Assembly (NCBI GenBank): GCA_902527045.1 | Contig: CABZNL010000008.1 | Span: 1-60,153, forward strand | Direction of reading: 5' to 3' | Source of the DNA: an uncultured Alphaproteobacteria bacterium | Lineage (GTDB): Bacteria; Pseudomonadota; Alphaproteobacteria; HIMB59 | Length of the DNA stretch: 60,153 nt | In this document: in pieces, positions 45,615 through 47,668 of the stretch | How positions within the stretch are numbered: the first letter of the stretch is position 1 | How the letters are laid out: each line of letters begins with the position of its first letter | Made by a program: the position numbers and the translations under genes | Notes under the pieces: model-generated | Told to the model about the DNA's origin: nothing | Seen by the model: only the letters and a program-made list of their open reading frames with translations | The model's database searches: none

Positions 45615-45690
45615 GGGCGATTAGCTCAGTTGGTAGAGCATCTCGTTTACACCGAGAGGGTCGGCGGTTCGAGTCCGTCATCGCCCACCA
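45615..45690 (+). tRNA. tRNA-Val (anticodon TAC)
   Basis: Perfect acceptor stem GGGCGAT/ATCGCCC, D-arm TAGCTCAGTTGGTAGAGC, anticodon loop TTTACAC reading TAC, T-arm CGGCGGTTCGAGTCCGTC and encoded CCA; 76 bases. Confidence 0.96.
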
Positions 45691-45703: not shown

Positions 45704-45781
45704 GGGGGTGTAGTTCAGTTTGGTTAGAACGCCTGCCTGTCACGCAGGAGGTCGCGGGTTCGAGTCCCGTCGCTCCCGCCA
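45704..45781 (+). tRNA. tRNA-Asp (anticodon GTC)
   Basis: The acceptor stem starts GGGGGTG, the anticodon arm CCTGC-CTGTCAC-GCAGG reads GTC, the T-arm is GCGGGTTCGAGTCCCGT and CCA is encoded. The D-loop is slightly long. It is 13 bp after tRNA-Val. The non-syntenic insert before nuoA begins just downstream. Confidence 0.95.
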
Positions 45782-45843
45782 CTTTATTTGGGAGTAGGTT
45801 ATATCTTTCTTATTATTTTCAATAGTTATCTGTAAAAAAAACA

Positions 45844-46182
45844 TTAATTTTTATCGTCTAATTTCATTAAATTTTCTGATAGATACTCTTCACCTTTCTC
45901 TGATAAATACCAAAGATATCGACCCTCATTATTATCGTTATCTTCCCAAATAATTTTTTTTGCTAAATTCATTTTTATTAATTTTTCTCCAGTATCTCTG
46001 ACAATATTAAAATTGAGCCCTGTTAAAAATGAAATTTCATCTAAATCAAAAGCATTTATTACTATTTTTGAAGCCACAGAGCTACCATCTGTATTTTTAT
46101 TTTCTATTTCTAGATTAACGTGTCTTTTACATATTTTTTCTTGAAGACACTTCATGAAGAGAAAATCTTGTGTCTCAATCAT
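45844..46182 (-). CDS. Winged-helix protein, possible transcriptional regulator
   Basis: A 112-aa protein with a MarR-like winged-helix pattern in its C-terminal two thirds: a helix around VINAFDLDEISFLTGLNFNIVRDTGEKLIKMNLAKKI (second and recognition helices) followed by a beta wing (GRYLWYLSEKGEEYL). The first 40 residues contain two cysteines (KCLQEKICKRH) and could form a sensor or dimer helix. Reading from ATG 46182, it shows no clear ribosome site. A 13-bp palindrome lies 52 bp upstream. It ends 63 bp from tRNA-Asp. Its target is unknown; the 217-aa gene upstream on the same strand is the obvious candidate. Confidence 0.6.
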   Translation of the reverse strand: MIETQDFLFMKCLQEKICKRHVNLEIENKNTDGSSVASKIVINAFDLDEISFLTGLNFNIVRDTGEKLIKMNLAKKIIWEDNDNNEGRYLWYLSEKGEEYLSENLMKLDDKN

Positions 46183-46233
46183 AACAATATTTTATATTAT
46201 TTTACCTAGCCTTTATAAACACAAATTAGTAAT

Positions 46234-46246
46234 TGAGATAATCTCA
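46234..46246. promoter_or_regulatory. Candidate operator palindrome
   Basis: TGAGAT-A-ATCTCA is a perfect 13-bp inverted repeat in the 89-bp gap between the 217-aa gene and the winged-helix gene, both on the minus strand. Its position before the winged-helix gene suggests an autoregulatory site. Confidence 0.35.
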
Positions 46247-46271
46247 TACCAGATAACTATAATTCTGAGGC

Positions 46272-46925
46272 CTATATGGATAGGTTGTTAGACAATGTAT
46301 TTTCATTCAGGGGTCCTAAATCTCTAGGATATGTAAGTACACCATCCGAGATATATTTATTGTCAAATTGTGATACACACCATGACAGCGAAGCTGGTTT
46401 GGGTATCAGAGTGTTATCATTTCTAATAGAGTATAGTAAATTGTCTTTAACTACCAAATCACCCATATACACTAGATAAGCAACTTTTGTACGCCTTGTG
46501 ATAAAGTTACTTTCACCTTGATTTAGACCTTTAGGTGGATTATAGATAGCTGGTTTTCCTTGGTCATATTCATCCTTAATTCTCTTTATTAACCAATTTC
46601 TCATAATTTTCCTGACTATATGGTAGGCAGCAAATTGTGGTTTAATAGAATAAGTCTTTTGGTGCCCAACATTCAAAATTGTGTTATTTTTTGCAAATTT
46701 ATATGGATAGCCATCTTTATACTTTTGATGAAACTTTGAGAACTCTCTAGCCCATATAATACCTTCAACTACCTTATCTTTTGTTTGAGAAGTATATTTC
46801 TCTCTTGATGAAGTATCCTGTAAAACTACATCTCTAAAAAAAGATAGATAATCAGTCTCATTATTAAATTTTTCCTTATAATATTGACTTAATTCGTTCC
46901 AAGGTTTGATTTTAATATTTTGCAT
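46272..46925 (-). CDS. Orphan 217-aa protein, unknown
   Basis: A soluble-looking protein rich in Lys, Tyr and Asn starting MQNIKIKPWNELSQYYKEKF from ATG 46925. The central part has AAYHIVRKIMRNWLIKRIKDEY and a PPKGLNQGESNFITRRTKVAYLVYMGDL segment; the C-terminus includes PASLSWCVSQFDNKYISDG. No signal peptide, membrane span or catalytic motif is visible, and I recognise no family. It lies between tRNA-Asp and nuoA, where related genomes often have nothing, so it probably came in by transfer. Long length without stops in AT-rich DNA supports it being real. Confidence 0.62.
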   Translation of the reverse strand: MQNIKIKPWNELSQYYKEKFNNETDYLSFFRDVVLQDTSSREKYTSQTKDKVVEGIIWAREFSKFHQKYKDGYPYKFAKNNTILNVGHQKTYSIKPQFAAYHIVRKIMRNWLIKRIKDEYDQGKPAIYNPPKGLNQGESNFITRRTKVAYLVYMGDLVVKDNLLYSIRNDNTLIPKPASLSWCVSQFDNKYISDGVLTYPRDLGPLNENTLSNNLSI

Positions 46926-46957
46926 AAAAATAGATAATTTATATCATTATTTTATAG

Positions 46958-46986
46958 TACACAAATTATTTTAAGTTTTATGTGTA
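46958..46986. repeat. Inverted repeat with TACACA / TGTGTA arms
   Basis: TACACA (46958-46963) and TGTGTA (46981-46986) enclose a 17-bp AT-rich spacer; total length is 29 bp. A second repeat with the same outer arms and the same total length lies 241 bp downstream. Confidence 0.4.
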
Positions 46987-47198
46987 TATTTTATTTTTCT
47001 AAATACTCTCAATAAAGAATCAGATTGTTTTGAAAATCATATACAACTCAACTTATCTTATATTTTTTCAATTTCACAAGTTGTATTAATATTAAATTTA
47101 TAAAATTTAAGAAAGTTTGCTTCAAAAATCTCAATAATTTATAATGACTTTATTAACATTATTTTACAACGTTAATATTAAAATCTAATATCTAAAAT

Positions 47199-47227
47199 TA
47201 CACACAGATTATAATTAATTGTGTGTA
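47199..47227. repeat. Inverted repeat with TACACACA / TGTGTGTA arms
   Basis: Perfect 8-bp arms (47199-47206 and 47220-47227) flank a 13-bp AT spacer. The centre is about 95 bp before the nuoA start, so it could be an operator for the complex I operon or a hairpin in its leader. Confidence 0.45.
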
Positions 47228-47308
47228 TTACTAATGCGTCATTTTTATCATCACATATTTATCAATGTTTTCTATAATGAACCCGATTTCGGAAAACTTT
47301 AACTTATT

Positions 47309-47668
47309 ATGTATAACTTAGACTATATCTTTATTTTGATATTTATCCTTATTGGCGCTGGTATGGCAATAGCCATGTTTCTGCTATCCAAAATATTAGC
47401 TCCCAGCTCTCCTGACTCCGAAAAACTATCTGCTTACGAATGTGGATTTGAGGCTTTTGATGACACGCGTTCAAAATTTGATGTGAAATTCTATCTTGTT
47501 TCGATCTTGTTTATAATTTTCGATTTAGAAATAGCCTTCTTATTTCCATGGGCAGTGAGTTTAGGAAATATCGGTGCTCTAGGATTTTATTCAATGATGT
47601 TTTTTTTATTTATTCTAACTGTCGGTTTTATTTATGAGTGGAGAAACGGAGCATTAGATTGGGAGTAA
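47309..47668 (+). CDS. nuoA: NADH-quinone oxidoreductase subunit A
   Basis: A 119-aa membrane subunit of complex I with three spans. The conserved loop [41 protein letters not shown] region (key pieces YECGFE and FDLE) is unmistakable. First gene of the nuo operon after a 383-bp gap. No strong ribosome site is visible before ATG 47309. The proton-translocating enzyme passes electrons from NADH to quinone in the inner membrane. Confidence 0.96.

Follow-up and report, generated by a model that had tools for sequence, protein, structure and literature searches.

Gene content and composition of the tRNA-Asp-nuoA interval

The DNA analysed here (the window) is a stretch of 60,153 nucleotides from a source genome assembled to 1.15 Mb and 82% complete. 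Between tRNA-Asp(GTC) and nuoA, tRNA and ORF calls together with GC content confirmed the two minus-strand genes and the AT-rich gap described in a sequence-only reading. The features of the interval are as follows.

45615-45690: tRNA-Val
45704-45781 (+): tRNA-Asp(GTC), evident attachment site of integrative elements in the genus; the repeated core is tRNA positions 34-78
45782-45875 (+): left-end remnant of a tRNA-Asp integrative element, reaching the start of the element's integrase ORF, as judged by alignment against shuffles
45844-46182 (-): WH, predicted winged-helix protein of 112 aa (ORF and structure model)
46272-46925 (-): ORF217, orphan protein of 217 aa, candidate site-binding regulator
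46958-46986 (no strand): 29-bp site TACAC-N19-GTGTA on the ORF217 side, 32 bp before the ORF217 start
46987-47198 (no strand): AT-rich spacer, in which the relocated unit meets the native upstream DNA of nuoA at about 47005-47030
47199-47227 (no strand): 29-bp site TACAC-N19-GTGTA on the nuoA side, 81 bp before the nuoA start
47250-47278 (+): possible nuoA promoter, ATCACA-17-TATAAT
47309-47668 (+): nuoA, with which the complex I operon begins; presumed target of the regulation

The gap between ORF217 and nuoA (46926-47308) is 383 bp long, has a GC content of 18.5%, and holds no ORF of 50 aa in the ORF list. The nuo genes downstream of the gap were named by reading, and by reading an upstream 805-aa ORF looks like Lon and a 93-aa ORF looks like HU. 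In a promoter scan of the nuoA upstream region, matches of the type listed above were no commoner than in shuffled sequence. The motif GCGTCA (window 47236-47241) is present within 120 bp before nuoA in all 38 genus genomes, whether or not they have the 29-bp site. With GC contents of 26.3% (WH) and 31.2% (ORF217), the two genes are not strong compositional outliers in comparison to the upstream 805-aa gene (30.6%), nuoA (34.2%), and the window as a whole (31.8%). The segment had been called foreign-looking, which holds for its position and strand but not for its composition.

tRNA-Asp as an integration hotspot

The distance between tRNA-Asp and nuoA was compared among 38 genomes of the genus that have nuoA. 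It is 81-106 bp in seven of these, which represent empty sites (G018, G023, G012, G014, G425, G434, and G297), and 925-6970 bp in 24; in another seven no full tRNA-Asp lies in the available stretch and the distance is not measurable. Since the distance varies from 81 to 6970 bp across the genus and the contents differ, the insert in the window is more than a chance irregularity. The G011 copy of the hotspot encodes a polysaccharide lyase (Pfam match), and by reading the contents elsewhere include a hydrolase, a nucleotidyltransferase-like protein, a 1107-aa helicase-like protein, and a repeat protein of at least 1459 aa. In the near relative G020 (L080:1-4800), a protein of at least 1459 aa with, by reading, many Calx-beta-like repeats lies before nuoA. 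Other small inserts occur in G429 (L154, 1118 bp) and G069 (L151, 925 bp).

The hotspot in G011 also holds a 5.8-kb integrase element, whose integrase has Arm-DNA-bind_3 and Phage_integrase domains and which additionally encodes Toprim and AAA_25 proteins and one further protein that scores just under the HTH_17 cut-off. Positions 34-78 of tRNA-Asp are repeated exactly at the far end of the element, which gives a 45-bp duplication of the tRNA end. Similarly, G009 has a full tRNA-Asp and a second, 28-bp copy of the core, and the 45-bp core copy alone is found in G024, G442, and G430, in stretches that stop short of the full tRNA. These repeats show that integrative elements of this genus use tRNA-Asp as an attachment site.

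The first ~95 bp of the window insert match the left end of a G011-type element. Alignment of this left arm to ten genomes gave scores above those of all 500 shuffles in four (G006, G009, G011, and G439) but not in the other six. For the part within the integrase ORF alone, the score was reached by none of 500 shuffles for G011, by one of 500 for each of G006, G009, and G441, and by 71 of 500 for G439. No duplicated tRNA end, of the kind present in G011 and G009, was found at the far side of the window insert, and of the integrase gene, intact in G011, only the start region remains. The insert is therefore described as carrying a remnant rather than a working element. The sequence-only reading had likewise seen neither integrase nor duplicated tRNA end, both of which relatives carry, and its proposal of an old or very small island at a tRNA was largely right: the insert lies in a tRNA hotspot beside the left end of an element, although the attribute "foreign" was not supported.

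Tycheposons, which Hackl and colleagues are said to have described in 2023, are reportedly tRNA-targeted integrative elements with a tyrosine integrase. The G011 element resembles tRNA-targeted elements of this general kind in its attachment at a tRNA 3' end, direct repeat, integrase with an arm-binding domain, Toprim and AAA proteins, and empty sites in relatives. In contrast, the window copy retains a left end only, and its integrase, replication genes, and right repeat are missing.

Relocation of the gene pair

ORF217 is present in 25 of the 52 genomes of the genus, and WH in 24. The surroundings of the pair were compared in 23 named loci of relatives, and in all 23 tRNA-Ala(GGC) lies downstream of the pair on the same stretch. 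A 62-aa ORF follows the pair in 21 of them, of which 19 also have a cupin-like gene (by reading) before it, while the contigs of the other two begin with ORF217 or only shortly ahead of it. In G003, the pair is instead flanked by a homologue of an 84-aa ORF on one side and by tRNA-Ala on the other; in G020, the contig begins just before the pair and none of the 62-aa, cupin-like, and 84-aa ORFs was seen. The ORF217 copy of G429 is on a 4-kb contig without a tRNA. As none of the 23 named copies lies beside nuoA, a gene pair conserved locally at this place is ruled out.

In the source genome, both places of the pair in the tRNA-Ala region are empty, and the sole copy found is the one between tRNA-Asp and nuoA. 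Its tRNA-Ala locus, on another contig, is contiguous without the pair and aligns with that of G003 except for a ~1.5-kb segment with the pair and an island across tRNA-Ala. The pair unit itself is 92.4% identical to that of G003 over 1147 bp. Given the position near tRNA-Ala in 23 of 23 relatives and the contiguous locus without the pair in the source genome, the pair has evidently relocated to the tRNA-Asp-nuoA interval in this genome. With regard to the ancestral location, the tRNA-Ala region and the place beside nuoA require similar numbers of moves.

The tRNA-Ala region is itself disturbed by insertions. In two of the 23 loci, a 5' portion of tRNA-Ala is repeated upstream of the full gene (L021:10057-10108, 52 bp; L029:10491-10528, 38 bp), which suggests insertions at the 5' side of a tRNA. 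Additionally, an island 3' of tRNA-Ala that includes a 2-hydroxyacid dehydrogenase is present in G003 (L033:9103-13822) and in G020, but not in the source genome.

A foreign origin was not supported by these comparisons: ORF217 is present in about half of the genus genomes, it is under purifying selection (dN/dS of 0.06-0.13, and of 0.13-0.22 for WH), and its dS relative to G003 (0.262) falls among the values of five neighbour genes (0.088-0.264). Its dN in the same comparison (0.033) is above that of these neighbours (0.008-0.025). Recent acquisition of foreign DNA is thus supported neither by GC content nor by dS, and an origin from a phage or plasmid was rejected, there being no relatives among viral contigs, phages, and plasmids. 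Between G000 and G020, dS is 0.703 for nuoA and exceeds that of ORF217 (0.305), so that recombination may have occurred.

A 29-bp palindrome before ORF217 and nuoA

The exact pattern TACAC-N19-GTGTA, which the sequence-only reading had overlooked and which links the pair to the region of the nuoA promoter, occurs twice in the window, against 0.02 expected, and both copies lie in the tRNA-Asp-nuoA insert region. No further exact copy was found elsewhere in the source assembly (82% complete), where a control pattern had no matches. In relatives, two copies precede ORF217, at 29-32 and 216-230 bp from its start. Both were found in all 20 loci with enough upstream DNA (the proximal exact in 20; the distal exact in 16 and with one mismatch in four), and three further ORF217 loci begin too close to the gene for the site to be tested. 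The proximal site abuts a TATAAA before ORF217 in the window and in G003, which would suit autorepression. The site before nuoA has a TATAAT downstream of it, at 47273, an arrangement that would suit an activator.

The site before nuoA is present in all 22 genomes with both ORF217 and nuoA (21 exact, one with a mismatch). In relatives these two genes are far apart or on separate contigs, yet the nuoA site is kept. It lies 80-82 bp from the nuoA start in 25 of 26 genomes, and 89 bp in G429. Among the 16 genomes with nuoA in which ORF217 was not found, 11 do not have the site, four have it (one with a mismatch), and one is untestable. The four (G441, G422, G005, and G024) are incomplete genomes (66-85%), and in G005 and G024 neither of the genes flanking tRNA-Ala was found, except for one weak, unrelated-looking match. 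Apart from these exceptions, a conserved site both at nuoA and in the cassette's own upstream region accompanies ORF217 (Fisher p 1.6e-6, with relatedness ignored). In the ten genomes that are at least 90% complete, six have both site and ORF217, three have neither, and one has no ORF217 and an untestable site.

On the tree, three changes are needed for the site and seven for ORF217 as found, with G424, the untestable genome (its contig ends 80 bp before nuoA), scored as having no site. Few independent changes therefore underlie the correlation. Neither site nor ORF217 was found in the clade of G439, G297, and G434 (G297 is 94% complete, the other two 79% and 84%), which branches between site-bearing clades.

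In pairwise comparisons, the sites differ by 2.3% in their arms, with the spacer differing by 32% and the left flank of 29 bp by 50%; the figure for the arms is partly circular in that sites were chosen by their arms. In several relatives the bare pattern has at least the further matches that were listed, some of them GC-rich (TACACACAGGG...CCCTGTGTGTA), and a reversed control pattern has 0-4 matches per genus genome. These further matches were judged unrelated because they are sited neither at nuoA nor at ORF217.

Candidate site-binding proteins

ORF217 had been called an orphan, and no known family or fold was matched: searches of Pfam, PHROGs, NCBIfam, and PADLOC returned no significant match, and the structure model, predicted with poor confidence (pLDDT 56), had no Foldseek match at E 0.001. 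The source genome has one copy, which is 93% identical to the nearest ones. Beyond these, homologues were sought in 385 genomes of the class, three of which match; two are from this genus, and in the third the match covers 50 residues of a membrane protein of 758 aa (E 3e-4) and was judged to be due to chance.

The best of five models of WH has a pLDDT of 81, while two are near 52. The model resembles TFE-alpha, MarR, and PadR structures, and its predicted fold is that of a winged helix; WH has no match in Pfam and two weak TFE matches in NCBIfam, far under the cut-off. Cys12, Cys18, and His21 are invariant in 21 WH sequences, and one may speculate that they serve metal or redox sensing. In the window, the last eight codons of WH lie in the element remnant, unlike the nearest relatives, in which the protein stops at 104-106 aa.

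WH co-occurs with the nuoA site almost as well as ORF217 does and is missing only in G429. That genome, which is 78% complete, has an ORF217 of 65% identity with a methyltransferase after it; it carries the nuoA site, and a search for WH found none. WH is therefore less likely to be the sole binder, and ORF217 is probably the protein that recognises the site.

A putative regulatory cassette for complex I

The reading that we favour, with slightly better than even confidence, is that a clade-restricted, self-regulated cassette controls complex I, probably through ORF217. ORF217 and WH would form a small regulator cassette in part of one marine alphaproteobacterial genus, and we infer that the 29-bp palindrome is bound by ORF217, with WH possibly acting as its partner or as the sensor of a signal. 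The two sites in the upstream region of the cassette would serve autoregulation, and the one ~81 bp before nuoA, upstream of the TATAAT box, would serve control of the complex I operon. As a rule the cassette lies at a distance from nuoA, in a variable region close to tRNA-Ala(GGC). In the source genome it has moved into the tRNA-Asp hotspot and become joined to the left end of a decayed integrative element. It is now divergent from nuoA, and one regulatory region would serve both.

The site could instead be mobile DNA, a cassette end or recombination site left at nuoA by an earlier insertion, and not an operator. This is unlikely, although it deserves more weight than the alternatives below. 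The site is on the insert side of the ancestral junction, and so could have come as mobile DNA; it lies at the margin of the inserted DNA and is missing from all seven empty tRNA-Asp junctions, and the cassette is known from three different places, and has therefore moved at least twice. However, its distance to nuoA stays at 80-82 bp in all but one genome even though the adjoining insert differs, and G439, G009, and G069 have inserts but no site. Moreover, the other end of the cassette has no exact site, and the arms of the sites are kept while their spacers drift.

Also conceivable, though improbable, is that the pair is a self-regulating toxin-antitoxin or phage-defence module whose association with nuoA reflects common descent only. 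An orphan gene paired with a winged-helix gene near tRNA hotspots, with sites before its own start and a patchy distribution, would suit such a module, but it would leave the conserved nuoA site unexplained; PADLOC gave no match for ORF217, its G429 homologue, or WH, and in G429 ORF217 is followed by the methyltransferase, with no WH found, and yet the nuoA site is present. It is very improbable that the position of the pair beside nuoA is an artefact, due to a chimera formed in assembly or in single-cell amplification. The named relatives are labelled like single cells and the arrangement was seen in the source genome only; however, the pair lies inside a 60-kb contig, the genome has one copy, close to but distinct from the nearest ones (93% identity), and on another contig the tRNA-Ala locus runs on uninterrupted, with no copy of the pair. 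The left junction bears the element remnant, and on the right lies the native upstream DNA of nuoA.

Beyond the favoured reading of a regulatory cassette, ORF217 might be the founding member of a new family of DNA-binding proteins. Its gene would travel from one integration hotspot to another and its operator would remain in place at the complex I promoter; in this way, a streamlined ocean lineage would have acquired, lost, and re-sited a dedicated respiration control in the form of a movable module. We regard this extension as possible but doubtful.

Relation to known systems

Streamlined ocean bacteria have few regulators, and little is known of how they control respiration. If true, a regulator confined to one clade and acting at about three operators per genome would be an unusually simple and testable circuit for complex I, and the relocation would show regulator genes moving through tRNA hotspots while their target sites stay put. 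That the site is apparently common to the cassette and the complex I genes, even where the cassette sits elsewhere, suggests regulation.

A literature search, which covered few subscription papers, found no description of the gene pair, the 29-bp site, or the hotspot. In the portion available of a paper on HIMB59 (PMC3815206), a region bounded by tRNA-Ser and tRNA-Ala(GGC) is likened to hypervariable region 2 of SAR11. The pair, too, is usually found near tRNA-Ala(GGC), possibly at a different locus, and that portion makes no mention of the pair, the tRNA-Asp-nuoA hotspot, or the 29-bp sites. According to the accessible parts of two other papers, the phosphate islands of HIMB59 are not bounded by a tRNA (PMC10734472), and gene transfer in the HIMB59 group is the subject of the second (PMC12416821). 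Transcriptional control of nuoA-N is also attributed to Fis in Pseudomonas putida (PMC6072106). Fis is a global regulator there, whereas the candidate here is an orphan limited to one clade, and each genome has about three of its AT-rich sites.

In comparison to winged-helix proteins of the MarR/PadR and TFE types, WH appears alike in its model but is under the family cut-offs, and ORF217 has no such match. A paralogue of WH, with the same Cys-x5-Cys-x2-His pattern, makes up the N-terminal third of a 360-aa protein in G436 (L164:1382-2461, minus strand), where it is fused to ~250 aa without a Pfam match.
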